This document shows, piece after piece, positions 39,907-54,069 of a stretch of DNA of 55,727 bases. Source of the DNA: Candidatus Poribacteria bacterium. GTDB taxonomy: Bacteria; Poribacteria; WGA-4E; JAJDTR01. A program made the position numbers and the translations under genes. Positions within the stretch are counted from its first letter, which is position 1. Each line of letters starts with the position of its first letter. The stretch is taken from the NCBI GenBank assembly GCA_028820655.1, contig JAPPIK010000006.1, positions 247,427 through 303,153 on the forward strand, given 5' to 3'. Under the pieces are notes generated by a model that had not been told where the DNA came from, did no database searches, and was given only the letters and a program-made list of their open reading frames with translations.

Positions 39907-41261
39907 TTGGATAATCCATTCTTCGAGCGGCCCATTCTCAACTCGCCTTACGAGCGCCCAAGCCGGCACTGGGAGCTTGACGATTCGGGGCAGCCCACCC
40001 AACAGATAATGGACACCAGAAGGCGGGCGGAATTCATCACGCCGGTGCCCAAGCCGAAGAAGCGAAGGAAATCCTCCCGAAACCAAACGGAGATTGTGTT
40101 CGACGAGGGAGGTGGACTTTCAACCCGGCAGCAGCAATACCACACCGCGATTATCAACGAGGTGCGCCAACACGTCGACCGGTGGCGGAATCTCCCTAAC
40201 GCGAATCAGTGGCAGGTGACCCCTGAAACCGCACGCCTGCTTCAACACTGGCGCAGTCACCAATTCAGCGGTATCCGACCCTTTTTCTGCCAAGTTGAAG
40301 CCATCGAGACCGTGATCTGGCTCACCGAGGTAGCGCCGCGTATGAGTCAGTTAGGAAAGCGCTTCCTCGACCACCTCGACAGTTCCAATAAAGAGGCAAA
40401 TCCAAAGTTGAAGCGGCTCGCGCTGAAGTTGGCGACGGGCGCCGGAAAGACCACCGTCATGGCGATGCTAATCGCTTGGCAGACGGTCAACGCTGTGCGG
40501 CGTTCCCAGAGCGGACGGTTCACCCGCGGTTTCCTTGTAGTTACCCCCGGCATCACCATCAAGGACCGCTTGCGCGTGCTGCAGCCCAACGATCCGGACA
40601 GCTACTTTCGGGGGCGCGAGTTGGTGCCAAGCGACATGCTTCCCGATTTAGAAAAGGCAAAGATTGTCATCACGAACTACCACGCCTTCAAGCTGCGCGA
40701 GCGCACCGAACTCTCCAAGGGCGGGCGCGCACTGCTACAGGGGCGGGGGCAGCCGATCGCGACCCTCGAAACCGAGGGGCAGATGCTGCAACGGGTGATG
40801 CCCGAAATCATGGGCATAAAGAACCTCATGGTGCTCAACGATGAGGCGCACCACTGCTACCGAGAGAAGCCGGGAGAGTCGGACGAGGAAAAACTCACGG
40901 GAGATGACAGGCGGGAAGCCAAGAAAAATGCGGAAGCCGCTCGACTTTGGATTTCGGGACTAGAGATGGTCGGTAAACGGCTTGGCATCAACCGCGTTAT
41001 GGATCTCTCGGCGACGAGAAGGGCGAGAACGACCCCTTACACCTGGTTGTTGAAATCGAAGGCTATCGTGGGGAGGACGCCAAGGAGAAGAAATCCACCA
41101 TGGAGACCTATTGGGTGCCCGGCGTAAATCGGCACGGCAGCTACGGTCGCTGGGCGTTTGCCGAGTTCACGGTTGTGTATGAGATTGAGTCCGACTTTGA
41201 AGCCAAGGTGGAAGAAGAATTCAACAATATGATTGAGGAACACGTCAACCCGTGTCGATAG
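39907..41261 (+). pseudogene. Type III restriction endonuclease/helicase (Res), internally deleted
   Basis: The first ~375 codons are an intact N-terminal half of a BPTD_3080-like type III Res protein. It opens DNPFFERPILNSPYERP, has Walker A LATGAGKTTVMAM, the DEAH-like NDEAHHCYREKPGES and motif III LSAT. Directly after LSAT (about 41015) the sequence jumps. In another frame it continues LHLVVEIEGYRGEDAKEKKS, then YWVPGVNRHGSYGRWAFAEF and FEAKVEEEFNNMIEEH, stopping at 41259-41261. This is the normal C-terminal end of the family. The missing middle (helicase motifs IV-VI and much of the nuclease region, several hundred residues) indicates an internal deletion that also shifted frame. The TTG start has AGGAG 7 nt upstream. 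The restriction activity is lost, although a mod gene survives 4 kb downstream. Confidence 0.85.
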
Positions 41262-42850: not shown

Positions 42851-44014
42851 ATGAGCAGTCGACGCTTACAAATAACATTGCAGCCTGACGTGTTGCGCTG
42901 GGCACGAGAACGAGCCAAACTCCAGCCCGACGAGTTGGCGAACAAAATGGGCGTGAAAGATCCGGAGCGTGTGTTGAAGTGGGAGCGCGATGGGAAGATT
43001 AGCGTCGCACAGGTGGACAAACTCGCCAAGTGTACCTATACGCCTTTGGGATATCTATATTCGAAGCAACCTCCCGATGATCGCTTGCCGATCACCGACT
43101 TCCGAACCCGCGAGGGCACCCCGCCGCCAAGTCCCGACCTACTAGAAACCGTCTACCTGATGCAGCGACGTCAAGCTTGGATGCGCGATGACCTAATTAA
43201 GGCCGGCGTTGAGCCGCTGGATTTTGTCGGGGCTTACGGATTGGATTCCCAACCTCAAAACGTGGCGAGTGCCATGCGCAAGGCGCTCCAACTGACGGAT
43301 GGGTGGGCAGACACACAGAACACTTGGCGCGATGCGCTTAGATTGATTCAAGACCGACTTGATGCCACTGGCGTGCTCGTTTGCTTTAACAGCGTGGTGG
43401 GCAACAACTCGCGCCGTAAGCTGGATCCGAATGAATTTCAGGGGTTTGCCCTCGCAGATGAATATGCCCCGCTTGTCTTCGTGAATAGCGCCGATTTCAG
43501 AGCCGCACAGATGTTTACCTTGGCTCACGAGTTGGCTCATCTCTTGATCGCCAAGAGCGGCGTTTCTACGTTCCAAGTACTTCAACCGGATTCAGATGTC
43601 ACTGAACAGTTCTGCGATGAGGCTGCGGCAGAGTTTCTGGTACCGGCCGAGGAATTTCGTGCTTTCTGGTCTAGGTCCGCAACGAATAATCCGTTCCAAG
43701 CAATTACTTCCAAGTTCATGGTGAGTTCCATTGTAGCCGCACGCCGCGCACACGATCTCAAGTTAATCAGCACGGATACTTTCTTCAACTTCTACAGAGT
43801 GAATGCCGATGAATGGGAAGGCAATCAGCCGCGTGAAGATGACGGTGGTAACTTCTGGAATACACAGAAATGGCGCATAGGACCTCGATTTGCCACAGCA
43901 ATTGTACGAGCAGTCAAAGAAGAACGTATGCTTTATCGCGAGGCGTACAATTTCACCGGGCTTAGGGGTGACACATTTGAAGATATGCCTGAGAAGCTAG
44001 GGGTGCCAATTTGA
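42851..44014 (+). CDS. XRE-type HTH + ImmA/IrrE metallopeptidase-like regulator
   Basis: The 387-aa protein joins an N-terminal helix-turn-helix region (about 8-65, LRWARERAKLQPDELANKMG) to an ImmA/IrrE-type M78 peptidase domain. The zinc motif HELAH is at residues 226-230, with EQFCDEAAAEFLVP supplying the third-ligand region. Proteins of this type act as antitoxins or repressors that can be relieved by proteolysis. It overlaps the next gene by one base (TGATG). That neighbour is a DUF4411 PIN-like protein, the usual partner of this class, so the pair is a candidate toxin-antitoxin unit. No strong Shine-Dalgarno is visible before the ATG at 42851. Confidence 0.88.
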   Translation: MSSRRLQITLQPDVLRWARERAKLQPDELANKMGVKDPERVLKWERDGKISVAQVDKLAKCTYTPLGYLYSKQPPDDRLPITDFRTREGTPPPSPDLLETVYLMQRRQAWMRDDLIKAGVEPLDFVGAYGLDSQPQNVASAMRKALQLTDGWADTQNTWRDALRLIQDRLDATGVLVCFNSVVGNNSRRKLDPNEFQGFALADEYAPLVFVNSADFRAAQMFTLAHELAHLLIAKSGVSTFQVLQPDSDVTEQFCDEAAAEFLVPAEEFRAFWSRSATNNPFQAITSKFMVSSIVAARRAHDLKLISTDTFFNFYRVNADEWEGNQPREDDGGNFWNTQKWRIGPRFATAIVRAVKEERMLYREAYNFTGLRGDTFEDMPEKLGVPI

Positions 44015-44529
44015 TGAACGAACCTCACCCCTTGTTCCTGCTGGACGCGGACGCCCTCATTGGGGCACACCGCCGTTATTACGCACTGGACCTCTGTCCG
44101 GGATTCTGGGAATGCCTGATACATTATTGTGGAGAAAATCGGGTACGAAGTATTGATCGAGTTCGAGACGAAATTCTTATCAATTCAGATAGGCTGTCTG
44201 GCTGGGTGAAGCAAGCACCGACTGATTTGTTTGTGTCATCAGCGGAGCCATCAGTAACAGATAGCTATGTAGATATGAACCACTGGGTGCAGACAAACCC
44301 ACAGTTCCAACCGCAAGCAAAAGAAAAGTTCGCCAGAGTAGCGGATGGGTGGGTCGCCGCTTACGCGAAAGTCCATAATGGAGTCGTAGTAACGCAGGAA
44401 GTGTTTAGCGCGGATGTGAAGAAAAACGTGCCGCTGCCTAATATTTTTCAACAGTTTGGTGTCAATTACTGCGACACTTTCGAGATGCTGCACACGCTTG
44501 ACGTACGATTTGAATGGGAGCCGCCATAA
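44014..44529 (+). CDS. DUF4411 PIN-like protein (probable toxin)
   Basis: This is a 171-aa protein of the DUF4411 family. It begins MNEPHPLFLLDADALIGAHR, with the DADALI acidic motif expected for a PIN-like nuclease. The conserved basic/acidic segment RSIDRVRDEIL, then VADGWVAAYAKVHNGVVVT and the late acidic YCDTFEMLHTL follow. PIN-domain toxins cleave RNA using clustered acidic residues. ATG 44014 shares its A with the stop codon of the XRE-ImmA gene, which indicates translational coupling. The catalytic role is inferred from family and context. Confidence 0.78.
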   Translation: MNEPHPLFLLDADALIGAHRRYYALDLCPGFWECLIHYCGENRVRSIDRVRDEILINSDRLSGWVKQAPTDLFVSSAEPSVTDSYVDMNHWVQTNPQFQPQAKEKFARVADGWVAAYAKVHNGVVVTQEVFSADVKKNVPLPNIFQQFGVNYCDTFEMLHTLDVRFEWEPP

Positions 44530-44738
44530 TGCCCACGGACAAAAACCTGATTGCAACAGAGTCAGCGGATATCGAAACTGAGCATCCGACATCAAATGAG
44601 CAATCTCAATCACGGCGCGAGAAGGAGGTTCCGTCGGAGAAGCAGGCGACGGAAGCCTTGAAAGTTATTCGGGAATTGCAAAGCAGTGTATTCACCAAAG
44701 GGCGGAAGTTTATTCGGGAAGAGATGAATGAGCGTTGA
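44529..44738 (+). CDS. Small charged hypothetical protein
   Basis: The 69-aa hydrophilic protein starts at ATG 44529, sharing one base with the TAA of the DUF4411 gene. The N-terminal half is Glu/Ser-rich and probably disordered. The C-terminal half (KQATEALKVIRELQSSVFTK) is helical. It matches no family I can name. Its tight coupling suggests it belongs to the XRE-ImmA/DUF4411 operon, perhaps as an accessory or methyltransferase-linked factor. Confidence 0.55.
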   Translation: MPTDKNLIATESADIETEHPTSNEQSQSRREKEVPSEKQATEALKVIRELQSSVFTKGRKFIREEMNER

Positions 44739-44789
44739 AAACTTTGTCAACAGCAAGGAACAATCGCATCGAATCTTTCGGAGTTCGCA

Positions 44790-45158
44790 ATGTTAGGTGA
44801 AGAACAGTACCAAGCATATCGGAACCGGATTGAGGAACTGCGTTGTTTCGGGGAACTTGATGGGATTAGTGTGAATCAGGCGTCCGAAAAGGATTTCTGG
44901 TCATTTTTTGGGGCAACGCCTTTCGTTCTCACGGCGGAGACGGTGCTTTTGGATAATGGCAACTTGCGCGTCATCCGGGATGATGAGGATGGCAATCACG
45001 TTAGACTTCAATTTCTCGGCAATGGTAGGCTCCACTATGTGATTTTTCGGCGACGAAAAAGGAGTAGCCATGTTTCGCGTGTGGCAGGACGTGACACATT
45101 CAATGGTGTTAGGCGTCGGTTGCGACTTTTCGAACTTGAGCCACTGCTGCAAGCGTGA
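44790..45158 (+). CDS. Hypothetical protein in the restriction-modification operon
   Basis: This is a 122-aa protein of unknown family. It begins MLGEEQYQAYRNRIEELRCF with a helix, then NQASEKDFWSFFGATPFVLT and a beta-rich stretch (VLLDNGNLRVIRDDEDGNHV, RLQFLGNGRLHYVIFRR). A basic C-terminus (RVAGRDTFNGVRRRLRLFEL) follows. Its position between a toxin-antitoxin pair and a mod gene suggests an accessory role. A small DNA- or RNA-binding fold is possible but not demonstrated. Confidence 0.55.
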   Translation: MLGEEQYQAYRNRIEELRCFGELDGISVNQASEKDFWSFFGATPFVLTAETVLLDNGNLRVIRDDEDGNHVRLQFLGNGRLHYVIFRRRKRSSHVSRVAGRDTFNGVRRRLRLFELEPLLQA

Positions 45159-45221
45159 CCGACAAATCGATTTGTCCCGCATAGATGCGCCACAAACTCG
45201 GTTTTTCAACTAATCACTCGG

Positions 45222-45268
45222 CACTCTCCACTAGCCACTGTTTCTCCCACTCTCCACTATCCACTGAA
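45222..45268. repeat. CCACT-rich boundary repeat upstream of mod
   Basis: CTCTCCACTAGCCACTG and CTCTCCACTATCCACTGAAC lie directly before the mod start codon. The same CCACTAGCCACTG core recurs at 49786-49812 and 51957-51998, and a related CCACTGGCCACTG forms the ends of the element inside mod. Confidence 0.6.
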
Positions 45269-45270
45269 CT

Positions 45271-48200
45271 ATGCCTAAACGCAAAAAGAACACCAAAACC
45301 GTCGAAACACTCACACATACCGACGATAAACGCCCCAACATCCCCACCGCCGAACTCCAGCCGGTGATGGAGAACGACGATCCCATTCCGGTCACCTACG
45401 AGCGCAACCGCGACCTCGATCCCCAATTCGTGTGGCGGGGGAAGGACGAACAGGACTGGTCGGATCTGGTGGTGCAGGCGCCGCCGCTTTTCATTCAGGA
45501 GAAGGTGCATCCGAAGGTGCTGATTGACGACTTGGTGCGGGGTTCGCAGTCCGAGGACGGGGCGCCGCAGGAACAACTCGACCTGTTCGCGGACTTCAAC
45601 GGCTTGCCGAGCGAGGGCGCCAAGACGGAGTTTTACCAGCACGACGCCAACTGGTCGAACCGGATGATCCTCGGCGACAGCCTGCGTGTGATGGCGTCGC
45701 TGGCGGAGCGCGAAGGATTGCGGGGTAAGGTGCAGTGCATCTACATCGATCCGCCCTACGGCATCAAGTTCAACTCCAACTTCCAGTGGTCTACAACAAG
45801 CAAGATTGTGACAGATGGGAAAGCCGAACATATTACGCGCGAACCGGAGCAGGTAAAGGCGTTTCGGGACACCTGGCGGGACGGGATTCACTCCTACCTG
45901 ACCTATCTGCGCGACCGTCTGACCGTAGCAAGGGCCCTACTAACCGGGAGTGGTTCAATCATCGTACAGATTGGGGAAGAGAATGTACACCGAGTGCGCG
46001 CATTGATGGATGAAGTGTTTGGAGAGGAGAATTTTATTGCAAACATACATTTCCGTACAAAGATTCCGCTCGCAAACACGTACCTCGCCGGAGTAACAGA
46101 CCACTTACTATGGTATGGTAAAGATAAAACCCAAACCAAGTATCGAAAGTTGTTTTTTCCACGACTGGTCGGGGAAGGCACTCAATTTACAGTTGTACGG
46201 GCCAAAGACGGAAACATTCGACGTATGACCAGAGAAGAACTATCGGGCAGAGAAGAAATACCGGAGGGTGAATCGGCATGTCGCGGTTTGGATTTGGTGT
46301 CAGCTGGTCGGGGGGAATCCTGTGTGTTCGATGCAGAATTTGAGGGAACAGTTTACCGGACTTCATCACAAAAAAGTTGGAAGACAAACCCGGCGGGCTT
46401 TGAGCGCTGCAAAAAAGCCAACCGGATTTTAGGTGGAAGTACATCGTTGTCTTATCTGTTCATGCACGGCGATTATCCTGTAAGAGAATATTCTAATATG
46501 TGGAGCGATACGCAGGGAGCATCCGATAAGAGCTATGTTGTCCAGACCAGCGATAAAGTGATTCAGCGCTGCCTTCTCATGACGACCGATCCGGGGGACC
46601 TTGTTCTCGATCCGACTTGCGGGTCCGGCACCACCGCATATATCGCCGAGGGTTGGGGCAGGCGTTGGATTACAATCGACACCTCCCGCGTGGCGCTTGC
46701 TCTAGCCCGCGCCCGCATCATGGGCGCCCGCTACGACTACTACCTGCTCTCCGACAGCCGCGAGGGGCAACTCAAGGAGGCGGAGATTGAAGGCAGAGCG
46801 CCTTCGGAGGCGCCAACCTACGGCGATATCCGTCAGGGGTTCGTGTATGATCGGGTGCCTCATGTCACGCTCAAATCCATCGCTCACAACACCGAGATTG
46901 ATGTCATCTGGGAGCGGTATGAGGAGGAGTTGGCGCCGCTCCGCGCCGATTTGTCGAAGGTTGCCGGTCAGGCGCAAACGCTCGAAGAGTGGGAAGTTCC
47001 GCGCGAACGCCCAGAAAATTGGTCCTCCGAGACCGAGCTGCTGCTCGCCGAGTTCTGGGAGTTGCGTGTCGCCCGCCAGAAAGAGATTGACGCCTCCATC
47101 GCCGCCAAAGCCGATTACGAATACCTTTTCGACAAACCCTACTCAGACAACAAAAAGGTGCGCGTGGCGGGACCGTTCACCGTGGAAAGCCTCTCGCCTC
47201 ACCGCGTGCTCGGGGTTGACGAGAACGACGAACTGATCGATAACCTCGCCGACGCCGAACTCGGCTACGGCGAAACTCAGGACTTTGCGACCCTGATTCT
47301 TGAGCACCTCAAAACCTCCGGCGTGCAACAGGCGCATAAGGAGGACCGCATCTCCTTTACCGGCATCAAACCTTGGCCCGGCGACCTCGTTTGCGCCGAG
47401 GGCAGATACGTCGAGGGCGATCCCGACTCCGGCGTTGACAAACGCGCCGCCATCTTTATCGGTCCTGAATTTGGCACCGTCTCCCGTCCCGATCTCGTTG
47501 AAGCCGCCCGCGAGGCGGCGGACGCCGACTTCGATCTCCTGATAGCTTGCGCATTCTCCTACGAAGCCCACTCCACCGATCTCGACAAACTCGGCAAAAT
47601 CCCGATACTCAAGGCACGAATGAACGCCGATCTCCACATGGCTGCCGACCTCAGCAATACCGGCAAAGGGAATCTGTTCGTGATTTTCGGCGAACCGGAT
47701 ATTACAGTGGCCAGTGGCCTGTGGCTAGTGACCAGTAAAGGACAAAAATTTGCAAATTATGAACAAGTTAAAGAGTTATCAAGACTTGGAAGTTTGGAAG
47801 AAATCAATCGAGTTGGCAGAGATGGTTTACCGCATCTCTGCGGAGTTTCCGTCGGAGGAGAAGTTCGGCATAACCAGCCAGGTGCGGAGAGCGGCAGCAT
47901 CGGTCCCAGCGAACATCGCGGAGGGATCGGAACGTCAGCGGACCGGGGAGTTTCTTCAGTTTCTGGGGATCGCGAGCGGCTCCCTGGCGGAGACGGAGAC
48001 ATTTCTGATTCTGGCGCACCGGTTGGGGATAGCCAAAGCCGAGCAGATCAAACCCTTACTAGATCTAGCGGGGGATATTGGACGGATGCTCAACGGTCTC
48101 AAACGTTCGCTGCGATCAAAAACCTGACCGATGCGGACTTCCCACTGGCACTGACCACTGGCCACTGGACACAGGTTACCGTTCACGGCGTTGATGTGTT

Positions 48201-48492
48201 TCATCCCAACACGGGCGAGATTCGGAGCGACAGCACCGACGGCATCGCCTGCTGGTTTATCGATACCGACTATAACGCGGAGAGTTTTTTCGTGCGGCAC
48301 GCTTATTTCCTCGGCGCGAATGACCCCTACAAAGCGCTCAAGACGACGCTGAAAGCGGAGATTAACCGCGAAGCCTGGGAGACGCTCCACAGCGACACCT
48401 CACGGCCGTTCGAGAAGCCGGCGTCCGGGCGGATCGCCGTAAAAGTCATCAATCACCTCGGGGATGAGGTGATGAAGGTTTTTCGGGTATAG
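45271..48492 (+). CDS. Type III adenine DNA methyltransferase (Mod) with an in-frame inserted element
   Basis: The 1073-aa beta-class N6-adenine/N4-cytosine methyltransferase has the DPPY motif at residues 160-163 (YIDPPYGIKF) and the SAM motif LDPTCGSGTTAYIAEGW near 445-460. Type III Mod enzymes methylate one strand of an asymmetric site and pair with Res. The C-terminal part (about 970-1073) has GVDVFHPNTGEIRSD, YFLGANDPYKALKTTLKAEI and HLGDEVMKVF, as in Res-linked Mods. Between FGEPDI (about residue 810) and QVTVHGVDVF lies ~157 codons of low-complexity, glycine-rich sequence. It is the out-of-frame reading of the inserted S23/IVP element. The Mod frame stays open across it, so the protein may still be made. 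The matching res gene is broken. Confidence 0.88.
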   Translation: MPKRKKNTKTVETLTHTDDKRPNIPTAELQPVMENDDPIPVTYERNRDLDPQFVWRGKDEQDWSDLVVQAPPLFIQEKVHPKVLIDDLVRGSQSEDGAPQEQLDLFADFNGLPSEGAKTEFYQHDANWSNRMILGDSLRVMASLAEREGLRGKVQCIYIDPPYGIKFNSNFQWSTTSKIVTDGKAEHITREPEQVKAFRDTWRDGIHSYLTYLRDRLTVARALLTGSGSIIVQIGEENVHRVRALMDEVFGEENFIANIHFRTKIPLANTYLAGVTDHLLWYGKDKTQTKYRKLFFPRLVGEGTQFTVVRAKDGNIRRMTREELSGREEIPEGESACRGLDLVSAGRGESCVFDAEFEGTVYRTSSQKSWKTNPAGFERCKKANRILGGSTSLSYLFMHGDYPVREYSNMWSDTQGASDKSYVVQTSDKVIQRCLLMTTDPGDLVLDPTCGSGTTAYIAEGWGRRWITIDTSRVALALARARIMGARYDYYLLSDSREGQLKEAEIEGRAPSEAPTYGDIRQGFVYDRVPHVTLKSIAHNTEIDVIWERYEEELAPLRADLSKVAGQAQTLEEWEVPRERPENWSSETELLLAEFWELRVARQKEIDASIAAKADYEYLFDKPYSDNKKVRVAGPFTVESLSPHRVLGVDENDELIDNLADAELGYGETQDFATLILEHLKTSGVQQAHKEDRISFTGIKPWPGDLVCAEGRYVEGDPDSGVDKRAAIFIGPEFGTVSRPDLVEAAREAADADFDLLIACAFSYEAHSTDLDKLGKIPILKARMNADLHMAADLSNTGKGNLFVIFGEPDITVASGLWLVTSKGQKFANYEQVKELSRLGSLEEINRVGRDGLPHLCGVSVGGEVRHNQPGAESGSIGPSEHRGGIGTSADRGVSSVSGDRERLPGGDGDISDSGAPVGDSQSRADQTLTRSSGGYWTDAQRSQTFAAIKNLTDADFPLALTTGHWTQVTVHGVDVFHPNTGEIRSDSTDGIACWFIDTDYNAESFFVRHAYFLGANDPYKALKTTLKAEINREAWETLHSDTSRPFEKPASGRIAVKVINHLGDEVMKVFRV
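47705..48167 (+). mobile_element. IVS-like element encoding an S23/IVP four-helix-bundle protein, inserted in mod
   Basis: Perfect 13-bp inverted ends, CAGTGGCCAGTGG (47705-47717) and CCACTGGCCACTG (48155-48167), bound 463 bp. The only gene inside is the S23-like one. The element interrupts mod at a point where related proteins run straight from FGEPDI to the GVDVF segment. S23/IVP genes are known as intervening sequences in 23S rRNA; here the host is a protein gene. No transposase is present, so movement would have to be in trans or by another route. Confidence 0.75.
47750..48127 (+). CDS. Four-helix-bundle protein (23S rRNA intervening-sequence protein, S23/IVP family)
   Basis: The ~125-aa protein is read in a different frame from the mod gene that contains it. 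It has the family opening YQDLEVWKKSIELAEMVYR, the middle motif SQVRRAAASVPANIAEG and GEFLQFLGIASGSLAETETF. These are the hallmarks of S23/IVP proteins, homologous to the Avd accessory protein of diversity-generating retroelements. They form basic pentameric bundles that bind nucleic acid. AAAGGA at 47737-47742 supports the TTG at 47750; ATG 47759 is the alternative start. The function is unknown. Confidence 0.9.
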   Translation: MQIMNKLKSYQDLEVWKKSIELAEMVYRISAEFPSEEKFGITSQVRRAAASVPANIAEGSERQRTGEFLQFLGIASGSLAETETFLILAHRLGIAKAEQIKPLLDLAGDIGRMLNGLKRSLRSKT

Positions 48493-48540
48493 AAATACAT
48501 TAGACAATCTGCCTTTAGCATTTAGGGAAGGAATCTCGTT

Positions 48541-48945
48541 ATGGATGCATCGAAAGAACTCGAAATCTACAAACAGCGATATGAGACGTTCCGTTATCTT
48601 GATCGTCTACGTTGGCAAATGTTGCAGATCGCGGTCATAGTAGGTTCGTTGATTCTGGCTTATGGAAAAGACGGATCTGAACCGGCACGATGGGTATTCG
48701 TGGTAGTTGGCGCCTTATTCATGGTGCTTGGATTGACAATGCTGAAAATAAGACACGGAATAAATGTTAACAACCAAGTTCTGCATAAAGCCGCAACGCG
48801 GGTTGGTGACACTGATATTCCGCCGGCTTCTAAGTGGTGGAAGAGCATTGGTTGTTGGATTTCTTTGATTTTGATTGGCCTTGGGGTGTTATGTATAGCC
48901 ATATCCATTTTTTCCGCACAATCCAATGGAGGCCCCGATGCATAA
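48541..48945 (+). CDS. Small three-TM membrane protein, putative effector
   Basis: The 134-aa protein has an N-terminal amphipathic helix (DASKELEIYKQRYETFRYLD) and three hydrophobic segments: about 28-44 (LQIAVIVGSLILAYG), 50-68 (WVFVVVGALFMVLGLTML) and 100-123 (ISLILIGLGVLCIAISIFS). It matches no family I can name with certainty, though SLATT-type defence membrane proteins have a similar layout. The TIR-like gene overlaps its 3' end by 8 nt, so the two are co-translated. A membrane-disrupting effector controlled by a TIR-made signal is an attractive inference. Confidence 0.6.
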   Translation: MDASKELEIYKQRYETFRYLDRLRWQMLQIAVIVGSLILAYGKDGSEPARWVFVVVGALFMVLGLTMLKIRHGINVNNQVLHKAATRVGDTDIPPASKWWKSIGCWISLILIGLGVLCIAISIFSAQSNGGPDA

Positions 48946-49546
48946 GGTTTTTACCAGCTACCACCACGCCAAAGATCAATATTACAAAGACTGGCTTGTC
49001 CGGATGGGCGAAAATTACGAGATATTTATTGATCGGTCGGTGGACACAGGAGACATATCCGACAATCTCACCGATCAAGCAATCAGAGAGAAAATTCGAG
49101 ATGACTATCTCCGCGACTCCACGGTTACTATTGTGCTTGTAGGCGAAGAAACAAAACGTCGAGAGCACGTGGACTGGGAGATTTATTCCAGTATGATTGA
49201 TGGCAGAGTCAACAAAAAGTCTGGAATTCTCACGGTGAGTCTACCATCAATTGAAACCAGTTCCTCGATCTACGTCTCGCATTCTGGTGAGAAAAAAGCC
49301 GTCTATCCTGATATCCACGTATGGCAAACCCTGACCAGCCGGACCGAGTTCGAGAGTTACTACCCCTATATGCCCGACAGGATTATTGACAACTTACTGG
49401 AGCAAGAAGCCAAAGTTTCAGTCACCGCATGGTCCAGGATTGAAAACAATCCGAAGAACCTCCAATTCCTTATTGATGCCGCGTTTGAAGATCGCGCTAA
49501 ATGCAAATATGACCTTCGGCGGCCTATGAGGAGAAATAATTCGTGA
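48938..49546 (+). CDS. TIR-like (MTH538/ThsB-type) domain protein
   Basis: The 202-aa protein begins MHKVFTSYHHAKDQYYKDWL and continues DRSVDTGDISDNLTDQAIRE and STVTIVLVGEETKRREHVDW-EIYSSM. This pattern (FISYhH, NWPx/IRD, VVLIG..T..R.W..WEI) is typical of the MTH538 TIR-like family that includes ThsB of Thoeris defence. ThsB proteins sense phage and make cyclic-ADP-ribose-type signals from NAD. GGAGG (48928-48932) precedes the ATG at 48938 by 5 nt, inside the end of the membrane-protein gene. No ThsA (SIR2/SLOG or macro domain) is present, so the membrane protein may be its effector. The TGA at 49544-49546 overlaps a decayed helicase start. Confidence 0.8.
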   Translation: MHKVFTSYHHAKDQYYKDWLVRMGENYEIFIDRSVDTGDISDNLTDQAIREKIRDDYLRDSTVTIVLVGEETKRREHVDWEIYSSMIDGRVNKKSGILTVSLPSIETSSSIYVSHSGEKKAVYPDIHVWQTLTSRTEFESYYPYMPDRIIDNLLEQEAKVSVTAWSRIENNPKNLQFLIDAAFEDRAKCKYDLRRPMRRNNS

Positions 49547-49640
49547 TGGAATTTCGAATTGCCAACACCTTCACGGACTGCCACGCCGATCTCACTGGAG
49601 TTGAGCAGTAAGATGCCAAGACCACGACTTTTGCCTCCGA
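49546..49640 (+). pseudogene. Decayed copy of the helicase 5' end
   Basis: ATG 49546, overlapping the TIR stop as TGATG, reads MEFRIANTFTDCHADLTGVE-Q then TAA. The downstream copy at 52000 reads MDFRIANTFTDSLAKLTGNE-QKGAKTTAF, and the similarity continues past the stop (DAKTTTFAS). This is therefore a relic of the same gene start, truncated by a stop and then lost. The ATPase/nuclease pair lies between relic and intact gene. Confidence 0.75.
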
Positions 49641-49785
49641 ACAGACTCGGTACCGAACGCATGTCGAATTGAGCGCTCAAGCGAGACCATATGAGCAAAT
49701 AGGGCGATCCGATTGCAGGTTGTTAATCCGTGAAATCCTTAAATCCGTTTAATCCGTGATTCAGACAATTGCCAAATGGTGCCTC

Positions 49786-49812
49786 ACTGACCACTAGCCA
49801 CAAACCACTGTC
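49786..49812. repeat. CCACT-rich boundary repeat upstream of the ATPase
   Basis: ACTGACCACTAGCCACAAACCACTG lies in the 312-bp gap (49547-49858) between the TIR gene and the ATPase gene. A second CTTAAATCCGTTTAATCCGTG-type repeat (about 49737-49758) and the helicase relic fill the rest. Confidence 0.55.
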
Positions 49813-49858
49813 GAAAAGTGTTGCCACTGAGGATTAGATCGCGAATAGGAGACTCACA

Positions 49859-51457
49859 ATGAAAACAGATCGGAACGCCAAAACTACAAACATGCAAGTC
49901 CCAACGCCCTCGAATGTTCGGATTTCTGTAAAAGATTTCGGCCCCATCGCGAAAGGCTCTATAGATCTGCGGCCATTGACCATATTTGTCGGTCCGAGCA
50001 ACACCGGCAAAACGTACTTTGCAACACTGATCTACGCACTGCACCTGATGCTGGATGGATTTCAACGGCTACCCGTCGTGTTTGCCTATCGAGATCATTT
50101 TGAGCCAGGTTTCCTCCGTGACGAAACCCTGGCGACAAATATTGGTTTGCGGAAAGAGGAACTTCAGGAAACGCTCAAGAAACTAGAAACCGTAGGGCGT
50201 GCCTTCAGATTCTTGGATTTGCCTAGAGGTGTCCGCGACGCCGTGCGGTCAGTTCTCAAGAATCCCGAAGTATTGGGCGCGTGTATCGGAACCGAGTTTG
50301 AACGTTGCTTCGATCTCAAATCCTTGTCCGATCTGGTGCGATTGTCCTGTGAATCCGGTGGAACACAACTTTCACTTGATGTCAGCGAAGAAAAACAGTC
50401 TCTCTGGCATTTCGACATGGAACTTTCCGCGTCAGGCATCACCACAAGTGGGGAGATTGAGGATATAATCCTTTTCCCTGAGGAGTGGTTGACTTCGACA
50501 TTGGGGCACCATCGGGAATTTCACCGATTCAGCGCGTTAGTCAAAGAGAGAATGGAACTTGATTCTTCACTTGAACGAGGGCACTTGTTTGAGTTCTTTG
50601 ATCGATTATTGTACGCGGCAAATTTTGCCAATGAGCAAGACGACATGCATTACCTGCCTGCTAACCGCAGCGGCATCATGCAGAGCCACCGTCTGATCGC
50701 AAGTTCCCTCGTGGCACGCTCCACGCGCACAGGGCAAGGACACCCCCGTGAATTTCCAACACTGCCAGGCGTGACGGCGGACTTTATGGAGCAACTCATC
50801 CTTTTCACAGAGGAACGAGAGCGGGACGAGCTAATCAAGACGATTGCCGACACCCTCGAACGTGAGGTGCTTGACGGGCAGATACTAATCAATAGGGCGT
50901 CGGCGGGCGGATATCCGGAATTCGTCTATCAACCGCGCAAAACGAACGAAATCATTCGCTTGACCCGTGTTTCGTCCATGGTCTCCGAACTCGCGCCCGT
51001 TGTGTTGTTTCTCCGCGCTGTCATTAATCGCGGCGACATGCTCATCATTGAGGAGCCTGAAGCGCATCTTCATCCCGCGGCACAGACCGAGATGGCGAAG
51101 ACATTGGGCCGCCTGGTGCGCGCCGGGGTGCGGGTTGTGGTTACCACGCACAGCGACTGGTTGCTTAAAGAGATTGGAAATCTGGTGCGCGAGGGGGAAC
51201 TCAAAGATAAAACCGGCCAACCGGACAGAGAAAACCTACTTCCGAGTTCGCTCCAACCCAGCGATGTGGGCGTCTGGCAGTTCCGCAAGGATGGTACTTC
51301 CAAAGGGGCGACGGTAGAGGAAATCCCGTATGACCGAATCGAGGGTGTCGAACCTGAGGAGTATGAATACGTCTCTGAGGCGCTTTACAACCGCTCAGCC
51401 GACTTGCAAAACCAACTCGCGGAAACGGCGGGCGGGACAAAATACAAACATGAATGA
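49859..51457 (+). CDS. AAA/OLD-like ATPase
   Basis: The 532-aa ABC/SMC-like ATPase begins VRISVKDFGPIAKGSIDLRP and has Walker A FVGPSNTGKTYFA (about residues 40-52). Walker B is LIIEEPEAHLHPAAQTEM (about 400-417), followed by the H-loop region VVTTHSDWLLKEI. The central ~300 residues are a helical insert. Such ATPases control nucleases in several two-gene defence systems. The next gene overlaps its 3' end by 8 nt and encodes a PD-(D/E)XK-like protein, so it is probably an ATPase/nuclease pair. AGGAG (49847-49851) is 7 nt before the ATG. Confidence 0.83.
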   Translation: MKTDRNAKTTNMQVPTPSNVRISVKDFGPIAKGSIDLRPLTIFVGPSNTGKTYFATLIYALHLMLDGFQRLPVVFAYRDHFEPGFLRDETLATNIGLRKEELQETLKKLETVGRAFRFLDLPRGVRDAVRSVLKNPEVLGACIGTEFERCFDLKSLSDLVRLSCESGGTQLSLDVSEEKQSLWHFDMELSASGITTSGEIEDIILFPEEWLTSTLGHHREFHRFSALVKERMELDSSLERGHLFEFFDRLLYAANFANEQDDMHYLPANRSGIMQSHRLIASSLVARSTRTGQGHPREFPTLPGVTADFMEQLILFTEERERDELIKTIADTLEREVLDGQILINRASAGGYPEFVYQPRKTNEIIRLTRVSSMVSELAPVVLFLRAVINRGDMLIIEEPEAHLHPAAQTEMAKTLGRLVRAGVRVVVTTHSDWLLKEIGNLVREGELKDKTGQPDRENLLPSSLQPSDVGVWQFRKDGTSKGATVEEIPYDRIEGVEPEEYEYVSEALYNRSADLQNQLAETAGGTKYKHE

Positions 51458-51959
51458 GATTCTAGCCGAAATTCGGCTAAGAGTGTGCGTTGAAAACCTC
51501 GCTAGGTCGTGCAAGGAGGAAGGATGCGAAGCGTCTCTTGAGGATATCCCATACCCTAGAGTTGTGGTAGATGCGAATAAAGCATTCCCGGCTCAGGCAA
51601 TGGAAGGGCAACGATGTGACTACATCCTTTTCTTCATGAATGCCGCTGAAGACACGCTCTTCACGGTTCCGATTGAACTTAAGAGTGGCAAAGTAGATGC
51701 CTCGGAGGCGATTAACCAACTGCAGGGCGGGGCAGCCTTCGCTAATCGCTTCACGCCGACAAGTTTCAGGTCTATCTGCCGGCCAATCCTGTTCCACGGT
51801 ACGCGGAGAATTCATGAGGAGGAACGCAAGGAACTCGGTCGTAAAAAGATTAGTTTCCGCGACGATAAACTAACCGTCAAGACAGCGCGATGCAGTAAAT
51901 CCAAGAATCTGGCGATTGCCCTATCAAGAGATCTGCGTACTGTAGTGGCGCGTCACTAA
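51450..51959 (+). CDS. PD-(D/E)XK-like nuclease, partner of the ATPase
   Basis: The 169-aa protein has the pattern CDYILFFMNAAEDTLFTVPI-ELKSGK-VDASEAINQL. D of CDY, a beta-strand and ELK then a helix with Q correspond to the D-(D/E)xK-Q arrangement of restriction-type nucleases. The C-terminal part (RRIHEEERKELGRKKISFRD) is basic. The ATG at 51450 overlaps the ATPase stop by 8 nt, indicating coupled expression. It would be the cleaving component of a defence pair. I do not recognise a named family, so the nuclease call rests on the motif. Confidence 0.65.
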   Translation: MNEILAEIRLRVCVENLARSCKEEGCEASLEDIPYPRVVVDANKAFPAQAMEGQRCDYILFFMNAAEDTLFTVPIELKSGKVDASEAINQLQGGAAFANRFTPTSFRSICRPILFHGTRRIHEEERKELGRKKISFRDDKLTVKTARCSKSKNLAIALSRDLRTVVARH

Positions 51960-51998
51960 CCACTCACCACTAACCACTGACCACTAGCCACTGTATTT
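51957..51998. repeat. CCACT-rich boundary repeat upstream of the helicase
   Basis: Four consecutive CCACT(C/A/G) units, ACCACTCACCACTAACCACTG then ACCACTAGCCACTG, separate the nuclease stop from the helicase start. Confidence 0.7.
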
Positions 51999-51999
51999 C

Positions 52000-54069
52000 A
52001 TGGATTTTCGAATTGCCAACACCTTCACCGACAGCCTCGCCAAACTGACCGGCAACGAGCAGAAGGGCGCCAAGACCACGGCTTTTGACCTTCAAATGAA
52101 TCCAGCCCAACCCGGGCTGCAATTCCACAAGCTGTCAAAGACCAAGGACCCGAATTTCCGGTCTGTGCGCGTCAGCCAAGACGTGCGAATCATCGTTCAC
52201 CAACTCCGGAACTCCTTGGTGCTGTGCTACGTCGATCATCACGACAACGCCTATCGCTGGGCAGAGCGGCGCAAACTGGATGTGCATCCCCAAACCGGCG
52301 CCGCTCAATTGGTTGAAGTACGAGAGACGATCCAAGAAATCACCGTCCCCGTCTACGTCGCAACCGAGGCGGAGGTTTCCTGCAAGCCGCCGCTATTCGC
52401 GGAAATGCCCGATGACGAATTGCTGGGATACGGTGTTCCGGAAGAGTGGCTGGAGGAGGTTCGCGGCGCGGACGAGGACAGTCTGCTGGCGTTGTCCGAT
52501 AATCTGCCGAGTGAAGCGGCGGAGGCGTTGCTTGAATTGGCTGTTGGCGGAACGCCGGTAATCCAACCGGTTGCAACCGCCGCCGATCCGTTTGATCACC
52601 CCGACGCCCAGCGCCGTTTCCGCTTAATGACGAATGTGGAAGAACTAGAACGCGCGCTCAACTATCCGTGGGAGAAGTGGGCGGTGTTCCTTCACCCGGC
52701 GCAGCGGCAGGTGGTGGAGGGGGATTACAACAGCGCGTTTCGAGTGGCTGGCTCAGCCGGTACCGGCAAGACCGTCGTCGCTATCCACCGCGCCGTGTTC
52801 CTCGCACGGGCGAACCCGGATGCCAGGGTTCTACTCACCACTTTCTCCCAGACCTTGGCTGACGCGCTTCGGACAAAACTCAAACGGTTAATCTACAACG
52901 AGCCGCGGGTTGCGGAACGCGTGGAGGTCGACGCGGTCGACGCGGTTGGCGAGCGGCTTTACCGGGCGCATTTCGGCTCACCGGAAATAGCGACCCAGGA
53001 GGCGGTTAAGTCGATTATGACCGATGTTCGCCAAGACGCAGAGCCGAACCGTTTCAATTTGCGATTTCTGCTGAGCGAATGGGAGAGTGTCGTCGACGCC
53101 TGGGGTTTGGATAGCTGGGAGGCGTATCGCGATATCAGGAGGCTGGGACGCAAGACACGATTGCCGGTGGGACAGCGCTTTATCCTTTGGTCAATATTTG
53201 AAGGGGTCAAAACCAATCTTCGGGAACGCGGTCTGGTGACCCGCTCGGAACTGTTCGGTTTAACTGCTCAAAAACTGAAAGATCGCCGGCATCCGCCGTA
53301 TGATTTCGCGGTGGTCGATGAGGCGCAGGATATTAGCGTCCCGCAACTGCGTTTCCTCGCCGCATTGGGCGGGGACAGCCCTAACAGTCTGTTTTTCGCG
53401 GGCGATCTCGGACAACGTATCTTTCAAACGCCCTTCTCATGGAAAGCGTTGGGTGTCGATGTTCGGGGAAGATCTCAGACGCTCAAAATTAATTATCGAA
53501 CCTCGCATCAAATTCGGAAGCAGGCGGATCTGTTGCTGGGGCCCGAGGTCGCCGATGTGGATGGCAACGTTGAGGACCGACGCGGCACCATCTCGGCATT
53601 CAACGGCGAACCCCCGACCATCCACCGCTTTGAGAGCGAGCGGGAAGAGGCCGAGCTTGTCGGCGTGTGGTTGCAAGAGTGCCTTGACAAAGGCGTGGAA
53701 GGGAAGGAGATTGGGGTATTCGTGCGGTCGAAGACGGAGTTTGACCGAGCGTGTGCGGCGGTGCGCGAAGCCGGATTGGCGTATCGGGTATTGGACGATG
53801 GTACGGCGTCGGGTGACGAGTCTGTGTCCATCAGCACGATGCACTTGGCGAAGGGTTTGGAGTTCCGAGCCGTTGCCGTCATGGCGTGCGACGACGAAGT
53901 CATACCACTGCAGGAACGGATAGAGACGGTCGCGGACGATGCGGATCTTGAGGAGGTCTACAACACGGAACGGCACCTGCTCTATGTCGCCTGCACCCGG
54001 GCGCGGGACCATCTGCTCATCACCAGCGTCGAGCCGGCGTCGGAGTTTTTGGATGATCTGGAGATGTAG
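52000..54069 (+). CDS. UvrD/Rep-type helicase with N-terminal RelE/ParE-like domain
   Basis: This is a 689-aa protein. The first ~95 residues (FRIANTFTDSLAKLTGNEQK, VRVSQDVRIIVHQLRNSLVL, CYVDHHDNAYRWAERRKLD) look like a RelE/ParE toxin fold. An SF1A helicase follows. Walker A is AGSAGTGKTVVAIHRAVFLA (about 250). Motif II is FAVVDEAQDISVPQL, then GDLGQRIFQTPFSW and NYRTSHQIRKQAD. STMHLAKGLEFRAVAVMACD is motif V, and LLYVACTRARDHLLIT is motif VI. Such helicases unwind DNA 3'-5' and accompany restriction and other defence genes. A decayed copy of its 5' end lies at 49546. Confidence 0.88.
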   Translation: MDFRIANTFTDSLAKLTGNEQKGAKTTAFDLQMNPAQPGLQFHKLSKTKDPNFRSVRVSQDVRIIVHQLRNSLVLCYVDHHDNAYRWAERRKLDVHPQTGAAQLVEVRETIQEITVPVYVATEAEVSCKPPLFAEMPDDELLGYGVPEEWLEEVRGADEDSLLALSDNLPSEAAEALLELAVGGTPVIQPVATAADPFDHPDAQRRFRLMTNVEELERALNYPWEKWAVFLHPAQRQVVEGDYNSAFRVAGSAGTGKTVVAIHRAVFLARANPDARVLLTTFSQTLADALRTKLKRLIYNEPRVAERVEVDAVDAVGERLYRAHFGSPEIATQEAVKSIMTDVRQDAEPNRFNLRFLLSEWESVVDAWGLDSWEAYRDIRRLGRKTRLPVGQRFILWSIFEGVKTNLRERGLVTRSELFGLTAQKLKDRRHPPYDFAVVDEAQDISVPQLRFLAALGGDSPNSLFFAGDLGQRIFQTPFSWKALGVDVRGRSQTLKINYRTSHQIRKQADLLLGPEVADVDGNVEDRRGTISAFNGEPPTIHRFESEREEAELVGVWLQECLDKGVEGKEIGVFVRSKTEFDRACAAVREAGLAYRVLDDGTASGDESVSISTMHLAKGLEFRAVAVMACDDEVIPLQERIETVADDADLEEVYNTERHLLYVACTRARDHLLITSVEPASEFLDDLEM

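Follow-up and report, generated by a model that had tools for sequence, protein, structure and literature searches.

Long, fully nested gene pairs on the same strand are rare in bacteria and difficult to prove; the window, a 55,727-nt stretch of a Candidatus Poribacteria contig, raises the question of how a methyltransferase gene is read that carries within it a complete gene of the S23/IVP family. The preliminary description had placed an S23/IVP unit with inverted ends between the FGEPDI and GVDVF segments of a protein-coding Mod, with the host frame left open, and had offered three outcomes: that the linker is tolerated, that the element is removed at the RNA level, or that Mod is inactive. 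The placement is confirmed by Pfam matches, open reading frames and the inverted ends, and so is the open frame, the Mod ORF (45271-48492) running without a stop across the whole unit.

This host ORF (plus strand, 1073 aa) encodes a type III Mod DNA methyltransferase; it matches the family profile (PADLOC MTase_III, 1311 bits; PF01555, 4.7e-29) and both conserved catalytic motifs, IDPPYGIK and DPTCGSGTT, are intact. The S23 gene, encoding a four helix bundle of 122 aa, starts with ATG and lies at 47759..48127 on the plus strand, +1 to the Mod frame, with an alternative TTG start at 47750. Its product belongs to the family by a match to the whole PF05635 domain (positions 1-106 of 106, E=7.7e-39), and also matches TIGR02436 (1.4e-36) and PDB 2gsc (8.9e-26); a profile search of the genome found only this one PF05635 match. 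A weak Shine-Dalgarno-like motif, AAAGGA (47737..47742, plus strand), precedes it. Many nested relatives have GGAGG or GGAG as the corresponding motif. At nested loci the motif lies about 13 nt ahead of the ATG, which is above the usual spacing, and in the window and three others (L114, L222, L223) it is weak or missing.

Alignment of Mod with uninterrupted homologs, which the preliminary description had proposed, locates the element at the turn of a β-hairpin: in about 40 Mod relatives from the same phylum and from Chloroflexota the insert is absent. Between the hairpin anchors (EPDxE[IV]-turn-xVxVxGVDV) such empty Mods have 39–57 nt, one of them 108 nt (L211), and nested loci 453–630 nt, every length being a multiple of three; in L194 the distance is 381 nt. 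The element, for which the bounds first described were kept (47705..48167, plus strand), substitutes for the turn, both strands of the hairpin being retained. The S23-site loop of Mod tolerates other insertions as well, since in L211 an in-frame repeat of unrelated sequence (ASPQPHPTPPRNPLPEGEGASR) fills it.

That the unit entered this genome in one recent event was considered and rejected, as S23 relatives of many groups are nested at the same Mod site. The closest of them reach up to 83% identity, and same-site nesting in Mod is found in Nitrosomonadales, Methylococcales, Smithellaceae, Desulfobacteraceae, Chloroflexota, Methylomirabilota, Nitrospirota, Planctomycetota, Cyanobacteriota and Bacteroidota; searches of Bacteroidota and Cyanobacteriota, together with further S23 places, yielded more nested copies in Mod. 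The survey covered 288 distinct S23 genes, of which 28 lie in frame inside an identified host, a share that is inflated because the search began from a nested S23; of 116 further S23 places scored, 2 were nested. All 28 hosts are defence DNA methyltransferases, assigned by PADLOC to the families MTase_III, DrmMI, PglX and HmaB: 22 are Mods from at least eight phyla, four are DrmMI-like (L114, L231, L232, L295), one is PglX (L226) and one HmaB (L351), with S23 directly before motif I in the DrmMI-like and PglX hosts. Two further nested cases (L145, L156) are partial. The loci come mostly from metagenome assemblies, and the nested sequences are related, so the counts are not numbers of independent events. 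The S23 genes in three plasmid records are free, none being nested; a phage collection gave a single weak match. In the open-licence literature, no report was found of S23 nested in methyltransferases, nor of heptad arrays flanking S23 genes in general. The nesting of S23 in methyltransferases is no one-off insertion: it is a naturally occurring, conserved arrangement in which the same stretch of DNA serves two genes.

The relative frame is constant: S23 is +1 to its host in 28/28 nested genes, and not one of the 288 S23 genes has the remaining sense frame open. The window alone is poor proof that the open frame is no accident, because about 1.9 host-frame stops are expected there and none would occur with P about 0.10; the proof comes from the relatives. 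In 19 nested genes, synonymous permutation leads one to expect 44.6 host-frame stops in total, and each gene has 0, while the remaining sense frame holds 4–18 stops in those same genes. A host stop requires T at an S23 third position ahead of a codon starting with AA, AG or GA. Such positions carry T in 0/773 cases in 26 nested S23 genes (elsewhere 412/2330), whereas in free S23 genes T occurs at 605/2411 risk positions and 1947/6033 others; the open host frame is thus under selection. In the other reading no S23 gene is free of stops, their number ranging from several to many. Some are dictated by the S23 protein, where Met precedes a codon that begins with A, and this probably explains why a single relative frame is observed.

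These numbers also bear on the idea that Mod is a pseudogene whose frame is open by chance or base composition. The probability of about 0.1 for the window alone would allow it, and three nested Mods are indeed damaged, by deletion of the methyltransferase domain (L091), a frameshift (L092) or rearrangement (L112). Yet the host frame is open in every one of the 28 nested copies, whose GC contents range from 0.36 to 0.62, the other frame does not stay open, the catalytic motifs are conserved and many nested Mods are intact on either side of the insert, which leaves this idea very unlikely. The damage in the three loci lies elsewhere in Mod, and the suggestion that Mod is inactive does not hold as a general rule.

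Coding in both frames is visible in the pattern of substitution. Over the 25 nt that precede S23, the host codon positions diverge by 0.19/0.17/0.53, that is, with wobble in the host frame. Within S23, synonymous change over codons 1–30 is 0.24 versus 0.47–0.54 beyond, a dip that is smaller in free S23 genes (0.36–0.45 over the same first stretch); host-frame identity is 0.68 over these codons and 0.38–0.44 further on. An effect of translation initiation on synonymous sites of codons 1–30 is conceivable. Beyond codon 30, nested S23 evolves like free S23, with third positions diverging most and constraint equal in both. Conservation of the host-frame amino acids over the entire linker was considered and rejected, as it is confined to the first third of the linker and its ends.

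The case that the preliminary description had set against itself, a Mod whose linker lacks an S23 gene, does exist. In L194, however, the linker holds the remnant of a dead S23, lost via substitutions and a deletion in its middle while the host frame was retained, and reading through the element gains strength from it. Divergence in L194 by host codon position is 0.31/0.35/0.63, with a host GC3 of 0.90, and the host frame there persists as ordinary coding DNA after S23 loss. This persistence could be taken to mean that S23 is a dead passenger and that the host-frame peptide alone matters, as a domain of Mod, all the more so as the S23p of Coxiella is apparently not made in vivo (PMC4990558). 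The middle of live nested S23 genes, however, evolves as an S23 gene, diverging by host codon position by 0.37–0.63/0.15–0.25/0.06–0.18, under the same constraint as free S23; a dead passenger is very unlikely.

Removal at the RNA level, by RNase III as in 23S rRNA intervening sequences (IVS) or by splicing, would make Mod the product of a processed RNA. RNase III excises the Coxiella IVS, which carries an S23 gene and heptameric repeats (PMC4990558), and the inverted heptad ends in the window can pair into a terminal stem (z=-4.3 for the window RNA). The rRNA fragments, though, stay separate after RNase III excision (PMC4990558), for which reason an mRNA would be severed into two. Nor does removal need an open host frame that is a multiple of three, and such a frame is kept, with its 0/773 T at risk positions, its wobble pattern upstream of S23 and its survival after S23 in L194. 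Removal is very unlikely on this evidence, and the option that the linker is tolerated and read through is supported by the same three observations.

The linker is predicted to be partly folded. Its first part (47695..47838, plus strand; Mod aa 809-856) is modelled as strands followed by two helices with a pLDDT of about 80, and overlaps the first S23 codons, which are dual-coding by their substitution pattern. The following stretch (47848..48075, plus strand; aa 860-935) is predicted to be disordered (pLDDT about 25), and is kept open with its amino acids free to change; the host frame then returns (48085..48201, plus strand) with a predicted helix (aa 939-950) and the second hairpin strand (aa 962-977). 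Folded and disordered parts appear in two structure models, whose overall confidence is modest (mean pLDDT 57 with 27 sequences and 66 with 23). The substitution pattern along the linker fits this predicted fold of the Mod insert. The preliminary description had not noted that the linker has a dual-coding part for which a fold is predicted. The host-frame stretch NLTDADFPLALTTGHWTQVTVHGVDVFHPNTGEIR of the linker lies inside one tryptic peptide.

Phylogenies do not bear out one ancestral insertion followed by simple vertical descent, which was rejected by AU tests: nested Mods do not form one clade (p=5e-8), nested and empty Mods being interspersed with at least six changes, and neither do nested S23 (p=6e-4). 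The Mods of L101 and L116 are not members of the main Mod clade, yet the S23 gene of L101 groups with the main S23 set. Free S23 genes fall within the nested S23 group, and the S23 of DrmMI hosts fall at several places in a quick, weakly supported tree. Since Mod and S23 trees conflict, the element must have arrived or been lost repeatedly; homing-like gain, recombination of the flanks and loss would leave patterns that look alike here. With regard to homing driven by a nuclease of its own, the site is the same and the trees conflict, but the element contains no nuclease.

The ends of the unit are perfect inverted repeats of 13 bp, CAGTGGCCAGTGG (47705-47717) being the exact reverse complement of 48155-48167, and the imperfect arms reach 24 nt. 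They had been taken as hinting at a mobile repeat family. The repeat family is borne out; what had been missed is that each end is built from copies of a 7-nt unit and is no unique 13-mer. The left arm is an array of CAGTGGC units (47705..47730, plus strand), the right arm one of CACTGAC/CACTGGC units (48149..48172, plus strand), and the genome search proposed earlier returned 104 matches with at most one mismatch versus 13 for a reversed control. Further intergenic arrays of CACTNNC units lie at 45222-45265, 49785-49798 and 51954-51992 in the defence cluster (8 matches to the pattern in the window versus 0.05 expected).

The same ends had also been expected at other S23 loci. In other genomes, free S23 genes of many phyla are flanked by their own inverted arrays with a period of 7 nt, but the sequence of the unit varies by lineage. 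In 73 free S23 loci, 37% of the upstream and 48% of the downstream flanks pass the lag-7 threshold versus 1% of control stretches, with at most 4% for periods 4–6 and 8–13. The arms of one locus match each other with a median score of 20, against 9 for swapped partners; in a second set of 75 loci the values are 18 and 9. A covariation test of the terminal stem gave no support beyond the shared heptads, the arms of one locus pairing only slightly better than swapped ones (12.2 versus 10.2). Tandem heptameric repeats upstream of S23 were already known from the Coxiella rRNA IVS (PMC4990558). Beyond what was first described, the nested element is recurrent and widely spread, in many phyla and four methyltransferase families, and its ends are 7-nt repeats.

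Nesting, relative frame, recurrence, constraint in both frames and tree conflict are demonstrated at the level of sequence, and very probably they reflect a translated Mod with an in-frame S23 element and an entangled +1 S23 gene, repeatedly placed in methyltransferase loops and spread between phyla. The element, with inverted 7-bp arrays at its ends, sits in frame in the hairpin turn, and the ribosome would read Mod through it, adding a segment of about 150 residues that begins folded, is disordered in its middle and closes with a helix and the second strand. S23 would be a second product, encoded +1 to Mod on this DNA and made probably from an internal start at its own Shine-Dalgarno-like site; we infer that the protein is indeed made from nested genes. 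In this entanglement the S23 protein is conserved, and the host frame has to stay open, keeping its amino acids near the first 30 S23 codons. Such elements, which presumably move as units, have very probably settled several times in the same Mod loop and in loops of DrmMI-like, PglX and HmaB methyltransferases, and spread between phyla together with these defence genes. Mod is probably active, methyltransferases may be favourable hosts, and entanglement in a gene that the cell needs would protect the element from loss.

Inteins and intron-borne homing genes likewise add a gene to a host gene at a constant position and have a patchy distribution, but the S23 element has no splicing domain and no known endonuclease. 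The 23S rRNA IVS with S23/IVP genes of Coxiella and Leptospira also have S23 between complementary ends, in Coxiella with tandem heptameric repeats upstream (PMC4990558). The window unit shares the complementary, stem-forming ends and lies in Mod instead of a 23S rRNA gene; here the host is a protein gene with an open frame, by all signs translated and with no sign of excision. Rickettsia palindromic elements (RPEs) carry inverted repeats and interrupt protein genes without shifting their frame (PMC10969869), and the unit resembles them as an in-frame palindromic insertion with empty sites in relatives. RPEs, however, measure about 150 bp, and the review describes no second gene in another frame (PMC10969869), while the element here is overprinted with a conserved gene and all hosts found are methyltransferases. 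In the synthetic entanglement of relE inside ilvA, the inner gene, fully enclosed and in a shifted frame, was stabilised (PMC10359631); that arrangement is engineered, whereas the nesting of S23, its natural counterpart, is recurrent and horizontally spread.

More tentatively, S23 genes with inverted 7-bp arrays may be a widespread class of mobile elements, the rRNA IVS being one guise, of which one branch persists by entanglement with methyltransferases and spreads with them; the entangling frame would be the only one compatible with S23 coding, and loss of a defence methyltransferase would harm the cell. How S23/IVS elements spread has been unclear since IVS were first described, and the loci outside rRNA bear on this, with sites that are vacant in relatives, ends built alike from 7-bp units and a history of having arrived or been lost more than once. 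The signal of coding in two frames is clear when phyla and the four host families are compared. Annotation may see Mod and a nested S23 as conflicting and discard one.

Mod lies in a defence-like cluster (42851-54069) with an HTH and IrrE-type peptidase, DUF4411, a ThsB-type TIR protein, an AAA_15 ATPase and a UvrD helicase. As to a Res partner, no ResIII match adjoins Mod or lies within 9 kb downstream; the nearest of 25 in the genome is in an upstream ORF (39907-41127) without a PADLOC match.

Other in-frame insertions were seen in these hosts. The DrmMI-like host ORF of L231 contains a DUF559 endonuclease-like domain (aa 989-1093; PF04480, 1.2e-36) in frame between LLPSPTGRGAGGEG-type repeats, which is a second kind of in-frame cargo. 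A second Mod loop (CAEGRY to RAAIFIGPE) holds short heptad palindromes without S23, in frame, in L095, L096, L098, L100, L102, L091 and L110, and a different repeat in L092 and L107; the empty relatives L196, L195, L033 and L192 have no heptad palindromes there. In L092, Mod is frameshifted at a heptad insertion, in a heptad-rich stretch upstream of 1657, and 7-nt units could in this way toggle the Mod frame on and off.
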